Shown here piece by piece: positions 1-6,433 of a stretch of DNA of 64,000 nt. Numbering within the stretch: the stretch's first letter is position 1; each line of letters starts with the position of its first letter. The notes under the pieces were generated by a model, which made no database searches, was not told the origin of the DNA, and saw only the letters and a program-made list of their open reading frames with translations. The position numbers were made by a program, and so were the translations under genes. The DNA is from Nitrosospira sp. 56-18 (GTDB taxonomy: Bacteria > Pseudomonadota > Gammaproteobacteria > Burkholderiales > Nitrosomonadaceae): NCBI GenBank assembly GCA_001899235.1, contig MKVR01000007.1, positions 1 to 64,000 of the forward strand, written 5' to 3'.

Positions 1-149
1 CCGAAAATGGCATAAAGCCCCACCACCGGCGATACCACCGAAAATCCCAAAGTGAAACAGTTCCATACGCTCAACGTCCGCTTGAGCGTATGGGCCTCTG
101 CCGCAGCGGCATGGCAAGCAGGACCATCCAGGCTTTGTTTCACTGGCAT
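1..149 (-). CDS. APC-superfamily amino acid permease, N-terminal fragment (runs off left edge)
   Basis: This is the first 49 codons of a minus-strand gene cut by the window edge. The translation starts MPVKQSLDGPACHAA and continues with a membrane segment reading FTLGFSVVSPVVGLYAIFG. That segment is the typical first helix of APC-family amino acid/polyamine permeases, where a Gly/Ser/Pro-rich unwound helix binds substrate. The ATG at 147-149 follows a good ribosome site (GGGAG about 7 nt upstream). The leader carries a guanidine-I riboswitch, so the likely substrate is guanidine or a guanidinylated/urea-type compound; this is inferred from context only. Family assignment is fairly sure despite the short piece. 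Confidence 0.7.
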   Translation of the reverse strand, partial: MPVKQSLDGPACHAAAAEAHTLKRTLSVWNCFTLGFSVVSPVVGLYAIF

Positions 150-387
150 GATGTTTCTCCCGGCGAGAAGATCGCAACAAGGTCCTGCCAGCCGCTCGTG
201 GCCCTTTTTATAGCAGAAACTGCACGGGAGGAGCTACGCGAGACAAGCGAGCCTCGCGGCTGCCTGCAATCGATTACGATTACGACAGGAAAGGGACGTA
301 CAGGTACGGAACGTACAGAAAGGAAATGCATAACGAAGTCTCCTTTAATCGTCGGGTAAAACCCCAAGAGCAATGTATTACTACATT

Positions 388-484
388 ATCTCCCGGGCTT
401 TTATCCCTCCGTGGAGCCTCGTCATGACGAGACCGGAAACTCTCGGACCAGGCGTTTCCTATCGAGGAAACCGGAACCCTAGTT
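388..484 (-). promoter_or_regulatory. Guanidine-I riboswitch (ykkC RNA, subtype 1)
   Basis: Read on the minus strand, this segment contains the conserved ykkC blocks in order: CTAGGGTTCCG, then CTGGTCCGAGAG, then ACGGAGGGATAAAAGCCCGGGAGA-type sequence (given here in parts: CACGGAGGGATAAAA and GCCCGGGAGA). The hairpin between the first two blocks pairs GGTTTCC with GGAAAC-type arms. The GGGATAAAAGCCC block is the form I associate with the guanidine-binding subtype rather than the ppGpp/PRPP subtypes. It lies about 240 nt upstream of the permease start in the same direction. I did not find a convincing terminator hairpin between aptamer and gene, so control could be at translation or through a structure I missed. 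Confidence 0.88.
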
Positions 485-489
485 TCTCT

Positions 490-963
490 TTACATCAATT
501 GCACTGTCTTGATCGACCGGAAGCAAGACCCGGCCTGATCCAGGTACAGCATATTACAAATTGTTATGCCACTGCTGCTGAAGCAACCCAAATAATGACG
601 AATCCTTAAACCACAATAAAATCACTGTTACTGGAAATAATTGTACATACTTAATAACAAAAAGCAACATTAAATTTCCATCTTCAGGCATCAGCATAAA
701 TTGGGAAGTTAGGGATTCGTCATGCATTTTCATGCTGCACGGCCGGATTCTATTCCAGAATATGCTAAAAAATTAGTGTTCTAAAAAATATTATTCCCCA
801 TACAGTTATATGCGTTCAATCTGGAAACAACCACCATGAAATAACTGTCGCCTATATCTAAAATTCCGTATCTGGAAACACAAAATATGTTTTTGTCCTA
901 TTTGATCGTCATTTGCACCGGCCCGGCGACGAGAGTGTTCGCTACCCAACCTGCCCTCGGTGA
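490..963. other. Intergenic region, no gene seen
   Basis: AT-rich stretch between the 5' side of the riboswitch transcript and the 3' end of the porin gene. It should hold the promoter of the riboswitch transcript (minus strand). I see no convincing ORF, RNA gene or strong hairpin. Confidence 0.5.
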
Positions 964-2355
964 TCAAAACGATACCATGAAATCAAGCGAAAATAGCCAC
1001 TGGTCCTTTTTGTTGTCGAAAGGCCGATATGGCTGTTCAAGCCCCACCACTCTATCGTAGCGGATATTGGGTCGCACATTGAAACTGCGCGCCGCTTTCC
1101 AATTATCGAGTTTCAATCTTTTCGCCGGTTTCCAGTTCAGTCCTATGGTGGTTTGATAGTAATCCGCGGGTGCGGAAGTAATGGGAAAGTTGCCGGCAAA
1201 ACTCACCCCTTGATTATTAGTGGCAAAAGCCACCCGGAGAGGAGAAAGAACCCGAAAGCCGTCCCTGTCGCGGAACCATTCGCCACGAATTCCTATGGAA
1301 AGATCCTCCAGAAGATCGTAATACAAATGAGTATTGACTCCCTGCCACTCTACGTCCTTCTTTACCCCGTTCATTAATGCTCCGCCTACGAAACCGTGAA
1401 CGTAATGCGCAACAAAGTGAGTTTTATCGGTAATGCGATACTGCAAAACCGAACTGATCAGGGTCCAGGGTTCATGGGTTGTTGCCGAAACGTCGCCAAA
1501 CGTATTCAATATATTAAATGAGTTTCTCTTGTCCTCGCCAACCCATGCAATGCCTCCTATGCCGTTCCAGTTGGTTAATGCAGTTCTGGTTAAATTGGCG
1601 TCCCAGCCCCCCGTGCCGCTGCCGGTGAGCGGCCCGCCAATCAGAGACCAATTCTTGGTGAGCTTATATTCGAGCAATAATCCCATATGTGTAAAGGGAT
1701 GGCCGTTATCCAAGGAATATGCGTGCGAATAGAAGAAAACATCGGGCGCCGGGCCAATCTCATAGCCGGTTGGCGAGAAAAAATGGCCCGCCTTGACATT
1801 GAGGCCATTTCCGACGGGCACATAGAATTCGAGATAGGCCTGAGGAAATGCTATGCCGTAGGTGCGGGTCGACTTGCAGCAAATATTCAGGTCCCAACTG
1901 CCTCTATTATTTGGCTCGCCACTGTTTACATCGAAAGGAGGAATCCCGGCTGCCTGGTAATAAATGGCATCCGTGCCGAACATGAAGTCGATACGGCCGC
2001 CAAAATCCCATGCATCGCCTTCAGCCACCACCGGTCGTTCAACAAATATATTGAATTGGTTTAGTTGCATTCTATTTGACCGATCAGCAAAGGAAACAGG
2101 GCCGTTATATCCGTTGCCCGGATTACCCGGGTTATAGGTAGCCCCGAGTTGCATCCATCCACCTATTTGGATACCGCTATTCTTAATGAGGGATAATAAA
2201 TTATCTGAGGTGGAACTGTTGGCGTTCAAGGTATTACTAGAAGTAGCCCCGTTTAGGTCAAAAGTATTCGAGTTAAAAGTATTGTTGGCCTGGACGCTGT
2301 TCGAATAAAGCAAACTGAAGACCATCAGGGATAACAAGCTCCGCGCCAATTTCAT
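964..2355 (-). CDS. Outer-membrane beta-barrel protein, BBP2/OmpL-like porin
   Basis: The predicted mature protein is a beta-barrel. It has alternating aromatic/polar strands, many Gly/Asn/Asp turns, and ends in a C-terminal Phe (LFSLDFMVSF), the usual signal for outer-membrane assembly. Phrases such as GGWMQLGATYNPGNP, GRIDFMFGTDAIYYQAAG, VKAGHFFSPTGYE and KNWSLIGGPLTG match the putative beta-barrel porin-2 family. The start chosen gives a clean Sec signal peptide (MKLARSLLSLMVFSLLYSNSVQA). An in-frame ATG at 2478 with GGGG upstream would add 41 residues in front of it and cannot be excluded. Role: probably a general or substrate-selective outer-membrane channel. It is co-oriented with the paralog array behind it but about 230 bp separate it from the nearest gene. 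Confidence 0.8.
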   Translation of the reverse strand: MKLARSLLSLMVFSLLYSNSVQANNTFNSNTFDLNGATSSNTLNANSSTSDNLLSLIKNSGIQIGGWMQLGATYNPGNPGNGYNGPVSFADRSNRMQLNQFNIFVERPVVAEGDAWDFGGRIDFMFGTDAIYYQAAGIPPFDVNSGEPNNRGSWDLNICCKSTRTYGIAFPQAYLEFYVPVGNGLNVKAGHFFSPTGYEIGPAPDVFFYSHAYSLDNGHPFTHMGLLLEYKLTKNWSLIGGPLTGSGTGGWDANLTRTALTNWNGIGGIAWVGEDKRNSFNILNTFGDVSATTHEPWTLISSVLQYRITDKTHFVAHYVHGFVGGALMNGVKKDVEWQGVNTHLYYDLLEDLSIGIRGEWFRDRDGFRVLSPLRVAFATNNQGVSFAGNFPITSAPADYYQTTIGLNWKPAKRLKLDNWKAARSFNVRPNIRYDRVVGLEQPYRPFDNKKDQWLFSLDFMVSF

Positions 2356-2588
2356 GATTACGTGCATCTGCCTGGTGGCCTGATCTGCATGCACGCGGCT
2401 GTCATTGATGGGCTGAGCACCCAGATCACCTTTCAAAAATGCAAAACCTAACTTCTCGTAATCCCCAAGGGTTTTCATGATCGCCCCTTTTTATGATGAC
2501 ATATTCTTACATCCCGGCCTGGGCTCCAACCTGCAGGAACCTCGTTGCTTCAACTGTTACTCTTATAATTACGGTATCCATTTCCCGC

Positions 2589-3026
2589 TCAATTCGATAT
2601 CAGTTCATCCTCTTGTTGGCGAGATGAAAAATAATTATTTTTTTCGAGGTCAGAGCCAATCCGTCGATGATCAGCGGCTTTAGTCAGGTTTTCCATGCTG
2701 GCTCGCCGGTACTTTCGCATGAGTGCCCACGTATGGGCTTGCAAATCCTGGGCACGCTTACCATAGAGATAGCTTTTTTCCTCGTAATGCTCGAGAAGCT
2801 GCTCTTGCTCCCTCGCCTTTATGCTTAGGTTCATAGCCGTTTCTTCGTAGTACTTTGCCCTGGCAATATGATATTCACTGGAGTTGGATTGATTGGTATC
2901 TTCTCCGTATGCATTCGGCGTGCCTGAAGCAATTAACCCAGGCAGGAACAAGGCCATAAAAAACTCTTTTGCCGACGGTATTTTTTTATTTACCCGATCC
3001 TCGGCTTTGGCTAGTAAGGTTGCCAT
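2589..3026 (-). CDS. Helical periplasmic protein, paralog 1 of 5 (no lipobox)
   Basis: Product of 145 residues and the first of five related genes. The mature part is almost wholly alpha-helical and matches the others in the order HIARAKYYEETAMNLSIKA, then QLLEHYEEKSYLYGKRAQDL, then ALMRKYRRASMENLTKAADH. Unlike the other four it has no Cys in its signal region; the N-terminus (hydrophobic EFFMALFLPGLIASG, then NAYG) looks like an ordinary signal peptide or a degraded lipoprotein signal. The start has a good ribosome site (TAGGAG, 8 nt upstream). Its leader is closely similar to that of the paralog at 4453-4950, and both have a direct-repeat array just upstream. Function unknown; I recognise the family only as a recurrent small protein in this lineage. 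Confidence 0.75.
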   Translation of the reverse strand: MATLLAKAEDRVNKKIPSAKEFFMALFLPGLIASGTPNAYGEDTNQSNSSEYHIARAKYYEETAMNLSIKAREQEQLLEHYEEKSYLYGKRAQDLQAHTWALMRKYRRASMENLTKAADHRRIGSDLEKNNYFSSRQQEDELISN

Positions 3027-3057
3027 TTTGAATTCTCCTATCCATCAAACAAAAATA

Positions 3058-3340
3058 ACTGCTGCTACTGGACAGGTGTTCAGAGTCCACTGCTGCCTGC
3101 TGCTGGACGGATGGTCAGAGTCCCTTTAACTGCTAAATTGGACGGATGTTCAGAGTCCACTGCTGCCTTGCTGCTGGACGGATGGTCAGAGTCCTTTTAA
3201 CTGCTAAATTGGACGAATGTTCAGAGTCCACTGCTGCCTTGCTGCTGGACGGATGGTCAGAGTCCCTTTAACTGCTAAATTGGACGGATGTTCAGAGTCC
3301 ACTGCTGCCTTGTTGCTGGACGGATGGTCAGAGTCCTTCT
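3058..3340. repeat. Direct-repeat array 1: four ~70-bp units, each with two TGGAC...CAGAGTCC subrepeats
   Basis: A 20-bp element, TGGACGGATGGTCAGAGTCC and close variants (GATGTTCAG form), occurs eight times. Two elements alternate with short links (ACTGCTGCCTTGCTGC and CTTTAACTGCTAAAT), giving a 70-71 bp unit repeated about four times; unit starts are near 3069, 3139, 3210 and 3281. All copies are in the same orientation. The array ends 30 bp upstream of the start codon of the paralog-1 gene (minus strand). There are no unique spacers. Confidence 0.9.
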
Positions 3341-3522
3341 AATTGATGCACGTTCAGTTTATTTGATTCTACAACTCTTTCGACATTCTAAGACTTTAAA
3401 ACCAAAAATCAAAATTCCTTTTACTGCAAGCTCTCCCGCTGGCGAAACCTTAAGCCAAGGCCACATGAAGTTACTGTAGGTGAAGTCCTCGCGCTTCAAC
3501 TGCAAAAACATTACAGATAACA

Positions 3523-3792
3523 GTGGTATTAAGAGGAAGCATAACGGATATTCCTAAAATGTCAAGCAGAATCTTACAAATTTATTGCAACCCGGCGGCT
3601 CTCCCTTGGATCGTTTCAGGAAGAATCGAAAAGTTTGGTGAATCAGCGAATGAAGTAAAAAGATGGAGATGCCGGGTTCATGCATTGGATATGCGTGAAC
3701 CCATGGAAACGATTCGCTTCGATATTTCCGATGCGAACGCACTGACGGAAATGATGAGAGGAGAACCACCCTGGTTTGGGATTAAAAATTAA
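3523..3792 (+). CDS. Doubtful hypothetical ORF between paralogs 1 and 2
   Basis: Open frame of 89 codons from GTG, or 77 from the ATG at 3559. No family is recognised. The C-terminal half (METIRFDISDANALTEMMRG) has natural-looking amphipathic composition, which is the main reason to keep it. Neither start has a good ribosome site (AGAGGA lies about 20 nt before the ATG). It opposes the surrounding genes. It may be chance or the remains of a gene. Confidence 0.25.
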   Translation: MVLRGSITDIPKMSSRILQIYCNPAALPWIVSGRIEKFGESANEVKRWRCRVHALDMREPMETIRFDISDANALTEMMRGEPPWFGIKN

Positions 3793-3934
3793 CGGTTCCA
3801 TCCGGCTGCTATTGCTGCACCACGGAACCAGGTATCGGCACGGCGCGATCCGCAGCCGGACGATTTTTTTCAATCCCAACTCAAGCTGCCGAATATGATT
3901 TGGAAAAATAAGCAAATCGGGTAATGCCGGGTTG

Positions 3935-4336
3935 CTATTTCAGCTCGCCGGCTTCCGATGCCATTTTTCTATGAGAAGCTGCTACTGCCATACATGTTTT
4001 TGCAGCCTGCTCATATTTCAATATCAATGCCTGAGTATGTGCTTCGAGATCATGAGGCACGCGATCATAAAGATAATGTTTGCTCTTGTAGCGGAGCAGT
4101 AATTTTTTTTGTTCGTTTGCTTTCGATTGCAATTCTTTGGCTGACTCTTCAAAATGTTTTGCCAATGCGATGTGCTCCTCGGAAGTTCTCGTATCCCGCT
4201 CGGCTTGAATAACGGTTTCAGAGCGGTCGCCCTCACGGATGTCCGTATTGGCGCAAGCCGTCAATAACCCGGTAAAAAACAAGCTCAGAAGAAAACAGAA
4301 ACCGCATTTATAATTGGCTGTCATAGAATTCCACAT
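3935..4336 (-). CDS. Helical lipoprotein, paralog 2 of 5
   Basis: Product of 133 residues. The N-terminus has a lipoprotein signal with lipobox LTAC (FTGLLTAC, Cys at about residue 28), so it should be lipid-anchored. The rest is helical with a heptad-like pattern: HIALAKHFEESAKELQSKA, KKLLLRYKSKHYLYDRV, ALILKYEQAAKTCMAVAASH. A second in-frame ATG four codons in (4324) is an equally good start. Between paralogs 1 and 2 lie repeat array 1 and about 580 bp with only a doubtful ORF, so the genes may not form one operon. Function unknown; the helical hairpin suggests envelope binding or structural work. Confidence 0.78.
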   Translation of the reverse strand: MWNSMTANYKCGFCFLLSLFFTGLLTACANTDIREGDRSETVIQAERDTRTSEEHIALAKHFEESAKELQSKANEQKKLLLRYKSKHYLYDRVPHDLEAHTQALILKYEQAAKTCMAVAASHRKMASEAGELK

Positions 4337-4452
4337 ACTGGTAATAGAGTGAAATAAACAGGCGGCTGAAGAGGAGAAAAAAGGGAGGGAAGTGTAAGAC
4401 GTTGGGCAGTTCTACACCCCCTCCGGAGGGCACGCTTTCATCAGCCCCGTTA

Positions 4453-4950
4453 TCACTGAATAGTCTTGTTATCAATGCCTCGCTTTTCTAAAAAGGCCGA
4501 GCCGCGCCGTAGACTATTGTGTCCAACATAATTTTCTTCGAGCTTCTGGGCCATTTGCCGATGAGAAGCTGCTTCTCGCATTTTTGATTGCGCCGCTTGC
4601 TCATATTTCCGTATCAAAGCCAGGGCATTCGATTTCAAGCCATGAGATTGCCAGCCATACATGTTCCCGTTCTCATACTGCTGAAGCAACGCTTTCTGTT
4701 CCTCTGCCTTTTCGCGCATTTCCTTCGCGGCATCTTCAGAACGCTTCGCCAAAGCATAATGCCCGCCTGGCGTAGCAATATCCTGAATGGCCGCATGGCT
4801 GACGACATCTTCTTTAACTATGTTTTTACTCATGGGCGCGCATGCGCCTAATGACCCAACCAGGAACAGTAGTGCAAAAAAACCTCCTGGTATCTGTTTA
4901 CATTTCCCGCCAGATAACTGGTCCCCAGTTGCGCCGAATGACATTACCAT
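4453..4950 (-). CDS. Helical lipoprotein, paralog 3 of 5
   Basis: Product of 165 residues. The signal region is FFALLFLVGSLGAC, with lipobox LGAC. The helical body reads HYALAKRSEDAAKEMREKA, KALLQQYENGNMYGWQSHGL, ALIRKYEQAAQSKMREAASH. The tail is longer than in the others and charged. The start follows TAGGAG with the same leader (AATGGATAGGAGA) as paralog 1, and repeat array 2 lies 35 bp further upstream. The shared leader plus array shows that gene, leader and repeats were copied together. Confidence 0.78.
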   Translation of the reverse strand: MVMSFGATGDQLSGGKCKQIPGGFFALLFLVGSLGACAPMSKNIVKEDVVSHAAIQDIATPGGHYALAKRSEDAAKEMREKAEEQKALLQQYENGNMYGWQSHGLKSNALALIRKYEQAAQSKMREAASHRQMAQKLEENYVGHNSLRRGSAFLEKRGIDNKTIQ

Positions 4951-4983
4951 TTTGATCTCCTATCCATTGAATAATAATTACCG

Positions 4984-5215
4984 CTGCTGGACGGGTGGTC
5001 AGAGTCCTTAACTGCTACCTGGACGAGTGTTCAGAGTCCATTGCTATCTTGCTGCTGGACAGATGGGCAGAGTCCTTTACTGCTAACTGGACGGGTGGTC
5101 AGAAGTCCATTGCTACCTTGTTGCTGGACGAGGTGGGCAGAGTCCTTTACTACTAACTGGACAGGTGTTCAGAAGTCCATTGCTACCTTGTTGCTGGACG
5201 GGTGGGCAGAGTCCT
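4984..5215. repeat. Direct-repeat array 2: degenerate copies of the array-1 element
   Basis: Seven copies of the same 20-21 bp element in variants such as TGGACGGGTGGTCAGAGTCC, TGGACGAGTGTTCAGAGTCC and TGGACGAGGTGGGCAGAGTCC. The links are related to those of array 1 (ATTGCTACCTTGTTGC, TTTACTGCTAAC). It lies just upstream of paralog 3, exactly as array 1 lies upstream of paralog 1. The copies are more diverged than in array 1. Confidence 0.88.
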
Positions 5216-5391
5216 CTTGCTGGGGCAGACGATCGAGGCCCAGCGAAAAACACGATACACATTCAAGAATACTTTGTCAAGCTTTCTTCACATTTCCCTT
5301 ATGAAAAATTTACTCCAGTCCGGGTGGGGACAGGGCAATCCGGATGATCTGGCAAGCCAGTCCCAATCAGTCCATCCGGGAACGCAATCTT

Positions 5392-5799
5392 TCAAAAGGT
5401 TAAAGCCGCCTTGTATTCAGCATCATTACGCTTAAGTTTACGCGCCATCTGAAGATGTGAAGCGGCTTCCCTGCCATTTGATTGCGCAGCCTGCTCATAT
5501 TTGCGTATCAAAGCCATGGTGCGGGACTTCAGATTATGCGATTGCCAACCATACAGATGCATCTTCTCGTACTGCTCCAGCAGAGCCTTTTTTTCCTCTG
5601 CTTTTACCTGCATTTCTCTTGCAGCATCCTCGAAATGCTTCGCCAATGCGTAATGATCACTTGGGGTTACGGCATTTTGAATAGCCAATTGGGTAGCCGC
5701 ATCCTCTTCAGCAATATTCACGCCCATGGGCGCGCACCCAGCCAGTGCCCCGAAGAGCGCTAGAACCGTAAAAGTGCGTATTAATTTTTGTATGAACAT
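5392..5799 (-). CDS. Helical lipoprotein, paralog 4 of 5
   Basis: Product of 135 residues from the ATG at 5799 (a TTG four codons earlier is also open). Lipobox LAGC in ALFGALAGC. The helical body is close to paralog 5: HYALAKHFEDAAREMQVKA, KALLEQYEKMHLYGWQSHNL, ALIRKYEQAAQSNGREAASH. Its upstream region (around 5850-5895) contains TTTTGTCAAGTTTTCTTCAC, which recurs with small changes near 5270-5295 behind the gene, a further trace of segmental duplication. No repeat array precedes this copy. Confidence 0.78.
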   Translation of the reverse strand: MFIQKLIRTFTVLALFGALAGCAPMGVNIAEEDAATQLAIQNAVTPSDHYALAKHFEDAAREMQVKAEEKKALLEQYEKMHLYGWQSHNLKSRTMALIRKYEQAAQSNGREAASHLQMARKLKRNDAEYKAALTF

Positions 5800-6037
5800 C
5801 TTTTCTGTCAATCGAATCGACGGATTTAAACTTTAAACATATAATACTTACTTAAGGGTATTTTGTCAAGTTTTCTTCACATTTTATTGATGCAAAATTG
5901 ACATTTCAGGTGTTAGGGCGGCTGGGAGATACCTTCCCAGAACATCTTTGATCTTTGAAGAGTTGACGCCGAAAATACTCAGTGATGAGGCAGGGTATAA
6001 GCGGAGATGCGGGAACGGATCAAAAGGTCAAACCGCT

Positions 6038-6433
6038 TCATAAACTATCGTGCCTGAGGTATTGGCCTTCAAATTCGTGCGCCTTTTGACGTTGAGATGA
6101 GGCATGTCTCATATTCGATTGGGCAGCCTGCTCATATTTGCGTATCAAAACCGAGGTGCGCGACTTCAAATTATGGGATTGCCAGCCATACAGACGGATC
6201 TTCTCATACTGTTCCAGTAACGCCTTTTTTTCCTCTACCTTTACCAGCATTTTCCGGGCAGCATCTTCAAAATGCTCCGCCAGAACATAATGATCGCATT
6301 GGGTTACGGCATTTTCCACAGCCATGCGGATGGACGGATCCTGAATGGCTTCGTGGGAATCCATTTGTGCGCATGAAGCCGTTAGACCTGAAATGGAGAA
6401 AACAACCCACAATTTTCGTATTTTCGTTTTCAC
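6038..6433 (-). CDS. Helical lipoprotein-like protein, paralog 5 of 5
   Basis: Product of 131 residues from a GTG at 6433 (a TTG at 6448 is an alternative). The signal region is IRKLWVVFSISGLTASC. The Cys is present but the lipobox (TASC) is weaker than in paralogs 2-4. The body reads HYVLAEHFEDAARKMLVKV, KALLEQYEKIRLYGWQSHNL, VLIRKYEQAAQSNMRHASSQ. Close match to paralog 4 indicates a recent duplication. Neither start has a good ribosome site. Confidence 0.75.
   Translation of the reverse strand: MKTKIRKLWVVFSISGLTASCAQMDSHEAIQDPSIRMAVENAVTQCDHYVLAEHFEDAARKMLVKVEEKKALLEQYEKIRLYGWQSHNLKSRTSVLIRKYEQAAQSNMRHASSQRQKAHEFEGQYLRHDSL

Follow-up and report, generated by a model that had tools for sequence, protein, structure and literature searches.

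A guanidine-I riboswitch before an APC-type permease in a Nitrosospira-group genome and the variant guanidine carboxylation operon that it probably serves

Guanidine degradation genes have been reported for 135 of 145 betaproteobacterial ammonia oxidizers, most of which carry an APC permease in the same region, and a type I guanidine riboswitch arrangement was shown for Nitrosospira multiformis in the legend to Fig. 1 of the same study (PMC11410670). The pairing of riboswitch and permease in ammonia oxidizers is already published there and is not new. Three of five strains with the carboxylase route turned over some guanidine, only with ammonium present, and for ammonia oxidizers with this route the use of guanidine is assumed to cost ATP (PMC11410670). 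The carboxylases concerned are those of TIGR02712, the guanidine/urea carboxylases, with K. lactis structures (3va7, 5i8i). A carboxyltransferase (CT) with a biotinyl domain and without a biotin carboxylase (BC) domain is how known biotin decarboxylases and transcarboxylases are built; the CT domains of oxaloacetate and methylmalonyl-CoA decarboxylases and of the Propionibacterium transcarboxylase belong to other families. Related CT domains without BC are also found in PxpB/PxpC (KipI/KipA), subunits of 5-oxoprolinase, which are not known to have a biotinyl domain.

The window analyzed here comprises positions 1–64,000 of contig C7 of a Nitrosospira-group genome. It contains a guanidine-I riboswitch (RS1) located before an APC permease. 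The aptamer occupies window 388–493 on the minus strand and matches RF00442 over the full model (positions 1–107 of 107) with 94.2 bits (E 8.6e-16), above the gathering score of 63; in the same cmscan of the 64-kb window against Rfam, a tRNA was the sole other match at gathering thresholds. The initial annotation, which had described the conserved ykkC blocks on the minus strand in correct order and proposed Infernal with the guanidine-I model as a check, is borne out by this match, and no family of the ppGpp/PRPP subtypes, its named alternative, was matched in the window at the Rfam gathering thresholds. The interval that it gave (1–484) holds both riboswitch and permease but leaves out the first nine bases of the aptamer. 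The permease start, placed about 240 nt past the riboswitch, is an ATG at window 149, which lies 239 nt from the aptamer 3′ end, and the start region of the gene, read as that of an APC-type permease, is typical: after a variable N-terminus, a stretch of 28 residues is identical at 28 of 28 positions to the permeases of genomes G018, G014 and G004. The gene (window 1–149, minus strand) breaks off after 49 codons, the window start being a contig end. The full-length permease of G004 matches PF00324 and PF13520, and the 49 codons are all that the genome under study has. Riboswitch and permease are ordinary for the group, and the new part of the system lies just outside the window. On the other side, just upstream of the riboswitch and on the same strand, there is a BBP2-type beta-barrel porin gene (window 964–2478, minus strand; PF07642, 276 bits), which is possibly an outer-membrane route.

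Among the genes that might follow the permease leftward of the contig, where the initial annotation had suggested looking for guanidinase, urea carboxylase or urease-related genes, is a guanidine-type carboxylase on contig C49, which we join to RS1 by inference; relatives show a similar order. This contig carries, all on the plus strand and in this order, CarbA, bioB, bioF, bioC, CarbB, bioA and a second guanidine-I riboswitch (RS2; C49:11326-11431, 95.3 bits), which likewise precedes a permease start and then the contig end. Each of the two permeases is interrupted by a repeat that the assembly lacks. C49 ends in 81 bases that recur without mismatch in C7, and the 87 bases that open C26, once reversed, match C49 perfectly from its position 9 onward. 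We infer that a repeat of about 2.7 kb was dropped by the assembly and that the contigs follow the order C7 - repeat - C49 - repeat - C26. A 6.5-kb query from G004 (riboswitch to carboxylase) found nothing in this genome between the early permease and the late UAAP2, of which only the end is present, on C49 and C26. Since the assembly lacks the central part of the permease and almost the whole of UAAP1/2, the operon order is drawn from contig ends and relatives; the contig ends suggest RS1-permease-UAAP1/2-CarbA-bioB-bioF-bioC-CarbB-bioA-RS2-permease. In G004, both TIGR03425 and TIGR03424 are matched above cut-off (UAAP1/UAAP2, carboxyguanidine deiminase). An extrachromosomal circle for C49 was considered and set aside, as the chain of three contigs, with 81 and 87 identical bases shared at the ends, needs fewer assumptions.

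In C26, the UAAP2 end is followed by a 155-codon ORF, which presumably encodes a universal stress protein. A tandem family of small proteins (approximately 130–165 residues) has five copies in window 2592–6424 (minus strand) and one copy at the end of C26 (L059:9883-10335; further loci L088, L089 and L090), which supports the view that C7 and C26 flank one locus. Members of this family are also located beside the guanidine locus in G011 (eight copies), G014 (five) and G004 (four), with one more in G021, and no Pfam match above cut-off was detected in the scanned copies.

Compared to the N. multiformis operon (PMC11410670), the locus has in common the riboswitch, the APC permease, the deiminase pair (here represented by the end of one gene) and a guanidine-type carboxylase, but differs from it in two riboswitch–permease copies, a second carboxyltransferase that lacks BC, the biotin genes in the locus and the lack of a detectable AtzF in the genome. 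The last three features define what appears to be a new form of the guanidine operon. The CarbA/biotin variant was not described in the literature searched on guanidine riboswitches, guanidine/urea carboxylases and nitrifiers, a search whose scope was articles without their supplements. CarbB, with 1941.8 bits on TIGR02712 (cut-off 1303.85) and with BC, CT and biotinyl domains by Pfam, has every domain of the TIGR02712 enzymes and is, judged by its sequence, a complete guanidine-type carboxylase. CarbA shares with these enzymes the CT_A_B, CT_C_D and biotinyl domains and two aspartates, whereas it has no BC domain by Pfam, matches TIGR02712 at positions 444–1201 only (1106.3 bits, under the cut-off) and departs from otherwise constant residues at 14 columns; CarbA of G087 likewise contains CT and biotinyl domains without BC. 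In combining a carboxyltransferase with a biotin carrier and no BC, CarbA is similar to the oxaloacetate and methylmalonyl-CoA decarboxylases and the Propionibacterium transcarboxylase, the substrates of which differ from those of its own pathway. The absence of BC next to related CT domains is also a feature of PxpB/PxpC, whose models CarbA matches below their cut-offs; in contrast to them, CarbA has a biotinyl domain.

Positions 1330 and 1584 are reported to tell guanidine carboxylases apart, with Asp at 1330 indicating guanidine over urea (PMC11410670). When aligned to K. lactis urea amidolyase, both CarbA and CarbB have Asp at K. lactis position 1330 (Asn1330 in the yeast enzyme), and both contain GLGDVY, the motif that includes Asp 1584; in CarbA this residue is also seen in the alignment. 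All 13 CarbA sequences keep the two aspartates (1330 and 1584), the CT motifs and the biotin motif MKM. Among the columns that are constant in full D-type rows (at least 97% the same in 125 rows, in which some genomes are duplicated, L134 and L161 are left out and loci below L107 are not added), CarbA has switched residues at 14 of 292. Of these 14, five are no more than 12 residues from the two aspartates, as do 38 of the 292 (p 0.024), and seven are among the 34 columns at which all three N-type (urea) rows also differ (hypergeometric p 3e-4, a test on three rows only and made after the columns were seen); at two of these seven, S594 and L600, the CarbA residue is the N-type residue. We read these switched columns as a probable change of acceptor in CarbA. 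The AlphaFold model of CarbA (13 rows) is poor (mean pLDDT 47.8, pTM 0.30), so the changed residues are not placed in a structure.

The distribution of this variant was analyzed at several levels. In a sample of relatives that also contains this genome, RF00442 is present in 34 of 61 genomes; within the own genus it was found in 22 of 23, the miss being G002, which is 80% complete. In 16 of these 23, the locus riboswitch - permease - UAAP1/2 - carboxylase continues with AtzF after the full carboxylase, with a PsiE-family gene between the two in G016. TIGR02712 is matched (E <= 1e-160) in 108 of 125 family genomes, and the form without BC was counted in 13: G000 (the genome under study), G004, G011, G014, G017 and G018 in the own genus, and G027, G070, G071, G072, G087, G088 and G104 in genus g3. 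Among the carriers are records with the titles Nitrosomonas europaea and N. eutropha. A full-length CarbB match (1–1201) accompanies CarbA in each of the 13, and the CarbA frame is open in every one. The count excludes rows cut by contig ends (G002, G094, G095, G147, G148 and others) and G106, a single-contig genome with a match only from position 322. An even, order-wide sample of 399 genomes contains 57 with a carboxylase match of E <= 1e-200, of which only G000 and G027 have the form without BC, G481 being split over two pieces and not counted. In a GTDB scan, 459 of 551 pattern matches encode relatives, and the best 80 of these correspond to 79 loci; 10 of these 79 best loci lack BC, all in records titled Nitrosospira, Nitrosovibrio or Nitrosomonas, and an eleventh candidate, L161, starts at the locus edge and is not judgeable.

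In a tree of 52 carboxyltransferase rows, in which one G002 row is a contig fragment of the full enzyme and not the form without BC, the 13 CarbA rows form one clade (100/100, stem 0.28), while the full enzymes of the own genus are grouped apart from those of the seven g3 carriers. A single clade was likewise obtained for the permeases (12 of the 13 carriers, that of G000 being too short; 100/100) and for the UAAP1 proteins of these carriers (0.98), but not for their UAAP2 proteins; thus, three of the four genes travel together. The CarbA pairs tested are under purifying selection, with dN/dS of 0.06–0.10 in the seven pairs computed (8 of the 13 sequences). Two other arrangements were observed. 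In four genomes of genus g2 (L047, L049, L070 and L074) a full carboxylase comes immediately after the permease, and neither UAAP1/2 nor AtzF was matched in the surrounding stretches, which leaves no obvious next enzyme nearby for the carboxylase product. In a record titled Nitrospiraceae bacterium WB-IL-04 (L109:5754-12277), the order is permease - UAAP1 - UAAP2 - full carboxylase, with no AtzF match in the surrounding stretch.

Based on these features, RS1 probably serves an operon for guanidine import and carboxylation in a variant form, a confidence that applies to the operon and the pathway and not to the reaction of CarbA. The initial annotation had left uptake and export of guanidine side by side; uptake with breakdown is favored over export because the genes past the window edge serve guanidine carboxylation. 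The guanidinase route, which it had cited from comammox, does not apply, as the pathway here is the carboxylase route. In the proposed scheme, the permease, UAAP1/UAAP2, CarbA, the biotin genes and CarbB would be made together when guanidine binds. CarbB would carboxylate guanidine, and the UAAP1/UAAP2 deiminase would then free one ammonia, leaving allophanate. CarbA may be a functional biotin-carrying carboxyltransferase of this pathway, one that no longer has a charging domain and whose acceptor specificity has changed, and the embedded biotin genes may supply the cofactor for the two biotin proteins. Our preferred reading of CarbA, held tentatively, is that it is charged in trans by another biotin carboxylase (the domain of CarbB or AccC) and acts on a changed acceptor. 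In 13 of 125 family genomes the pathway looks rebuilt: one carboxyltransferase lacks BC, AtzF was not detected, and the carriers of the Nitrosospira group have biotin genes at this locus. Should CarbA save ATP or lead to a different end product, the gain of ammonia from guanidine would be altered. The locus is also a case in which a riboswitch may control the supply of a cofactor to the enzyme under its regulation.

The biotin genes might instead be mere neighbors driven by their own promoters, which we consider possible, if on the unlikely side. On C49, bioB, bioF, bioC and bioA are above the cut-offs of TIGR00433, TIGR00858, TIGR02072 and TIGR00508, respectively, and extra or relocated biotin genes are present in the guanidine locus of all six Nitrosospira-group carriers. 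In the genome under study, the gaps of 188 nt between CarbA and bioB and of 121 nt between bioC and CarbB (from the ORFs as called; a CarbB start at MFEK would make this 235 nt) make internal promoters possible, and in G011 and G018 a bioB-F-H-C cluster between CarbA and CarbB runs on the opposite strand, which speaks for the same view. On the other hand, the called bioA ORF of G000 (TTG start, with CAGGAGG just before it) overlaps the end of CarbB by 4 nt and the bioB ORF of G017 begins directly after the CarbA stop codon with no gap, all on the same strand, which argues for co-transcription. Moreover, G000, G014 and G017 have two copies of bioB, and since they keep the usual bioB-F-H-C cluster elsewhere, the copies in the guanidine locus are additions, a point that also speaks against chance neighbors. 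The G004 locus is spread over two contigs, the second of which opens with the end of bioB, before bioC and CarbB. A single bioA match (E <= 1e-100) was found in 22 of 23 own-genus genomes and none in G004, and the gene lies in the guanidine locus of G000, G011, G014, G017 and G018; as it is single-copy, strict dependence on guanidine is unlikely. Within the stretches around the locus in the seven g3 carriers, bioA is located by the permease riboswitch only in G087, pointing the other way.

With regard to CarbA itself, one alternative is that it is a biotin-dependent allophanate decarboxylase or transcarboxylase that stands in for the missing allophanate hydrolase, taking the carboxyl group from allophanate to biotin and leaving urea, after which the carboxyl would be passed to the next guanidine or lost as CO2. 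The CT-plus-biotinyl make-up of CarbA fits such an activity, as do the N-type residues at S594 and L600. It also agrees with the distribution of AtzF, for which the best TIGR02713 match in the genome under study is 173.4 bits (cut-off 511.05). With TIGR02713 at E <= 1e-70, AtzF was detected in 53 of 125 family genomes and, among those with the carboxylase, in none of the 13 with CarbA versus 50 of 95 others (Fisher p 1.7e-4); the figures are 0 of 6 versus 16 of 17 in the own genus and 0 of 7 versus 33 of 71 in g3 (p 0.019), but because the genomes are related these counts are not independent and the p-values overstate the case. In G018, a 30-residue match to the AtzF C-terminus (27.3 bits, E 2.5e-6; C146:1931-2020) adjoins CarbB, so AtzF was probably once there and then lost. 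However, a further 45 genomes have the carboxylase but neither CarbA nor AtzF, so the absence of AtzF needs no replacement. Asp is kept at 1330, where urea enzymes have Asn, and no urease match was found in 8 of the 13 CarbA genomes, including all seven of g3, where urea would thus be waste. We consider an allophanate-directed reaction of CarbA unlikely. A further step, in which CarbA would complete a relay of the carboxyl group (allophanate + guanidine -> urea + carboxyguanidine) while the riboswitch also switches on biotin synthesis, appears quite improbable. If true, the net reaction with the deiminase would be guanidine + water -> urea + ammonia, and ATP would be spent only on starting the cycle via CarbB, a guanidinase-like outcome without guanidinase.

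An outlet for urea and a stand-in for AtzF were also considered. Urease was detected in 75 of the 125 genomes of the family, five of them CarbA carriers (0 of 7 carriers versus 49 of 71 others in g3), so that as an outlet for CarbA-derived urea it offers no general rule. An isochorismatase-family hydrolase gene (PF00857; L088:8437-9333, minus strand; L089:7440-8351, plus strand; L090:5384-6280, plus strand) lies directly behind CarbB in G011, G014 and G004, and hydrolases of biuret, triuret and guanylurea are called isochorismatase-like in the literature (PMC12625717). With these three proteins as tblastn queries (E <= 1e-3), no further copy was detected in 23 near-locus stretches, including those of G000, G017, G018 and the seven g3 carriers, and the gene is not a general stand-in for AtzF near the locus.

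Alternatively, CarbA may provide extra dosage only, with CarbB or AccC charging an enlarged pool of biotin carrier and carboxyltransferase for ordinary guanidine carboxylation. This is supported by the two aspartates and the biotin motif kept in 13 of 13, by the full-length CarbB match that accompanies every CarbA, by an AccC-like biotin carboxylase in the same genome (C13:6404-7729) and by a possible precedent for charging in trans, PDB entry 9yx5, whose entry record names an 'Allophanate hydrolase subunit 2' chain together with a biotin-dependent acyl-CoA carboxylase alpha3 subunit. Nevertheless, dosage does not predict that 14 near-constant columns should be switched, five of them close to the aspartates, and we consider dosage alone unlikely. 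A truncated remnant without function is very improbable, for although CarbA starts like the full enzyme in four Nitrosospira-group genomes (MFEK in G011, G004 and G014, MFER in G000), as expected from an internal deletion, and the G018 copy starts later than the others (model position 455 versus 432–444; an in-frame stop codon lies five codons upstream of it and the contig ends 107 bases before it), the low dN/dS, the open frames, the intact motifs and the presence in two genera all argue against it.

Returning to the preferred reading, in which RS1 controls the guanidine operon, the switch is most likely of the ON type, in line with the statement that guanidine-I riboswitches turn genes on (PMC11410670). 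A predicted alternative (anti-aptamer) hairpin at window 335–412 (minus strand), the putative expression platform, takes up the 3′ part of the aptamer, with an MFE of -33.7 kcal/mol (z -6.8; none of 200 shuffles was equally stable), and bound guanidine would keep the aptamer out of it. Among 43 riboswitch copies (strict-pattern matches in 39 stretches), 29 have a folding-energy z <= -2 for a stretch of 62 nt (energy only, with 60 shuffles per copy), and RNAalifold on 41 distinct copies recovered three aptamer pairs as the consensus and not the hairpin. A transcription terminator was considered and set aside, as no intrinsic terminator pattern was found after the aptamer in a pattern search of window 1–1200. 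The leader also contains a possible ORF of 63 codons (window 140–331, minus strand) that starts after AAAGGAG and whose translation is putative. At its stop, this ORF shares 10 nt with the permease start, and exactly the same overlap is found in 11 of the 43 copies, with leaders of 51 to 81 codons; in the remaining 32, six of which precede a carboxylase, it is absent or not judgeable. Translational control through the leader ORF would be our guess. The start region of this ORF is alike in many copies (MHFxS and similar).
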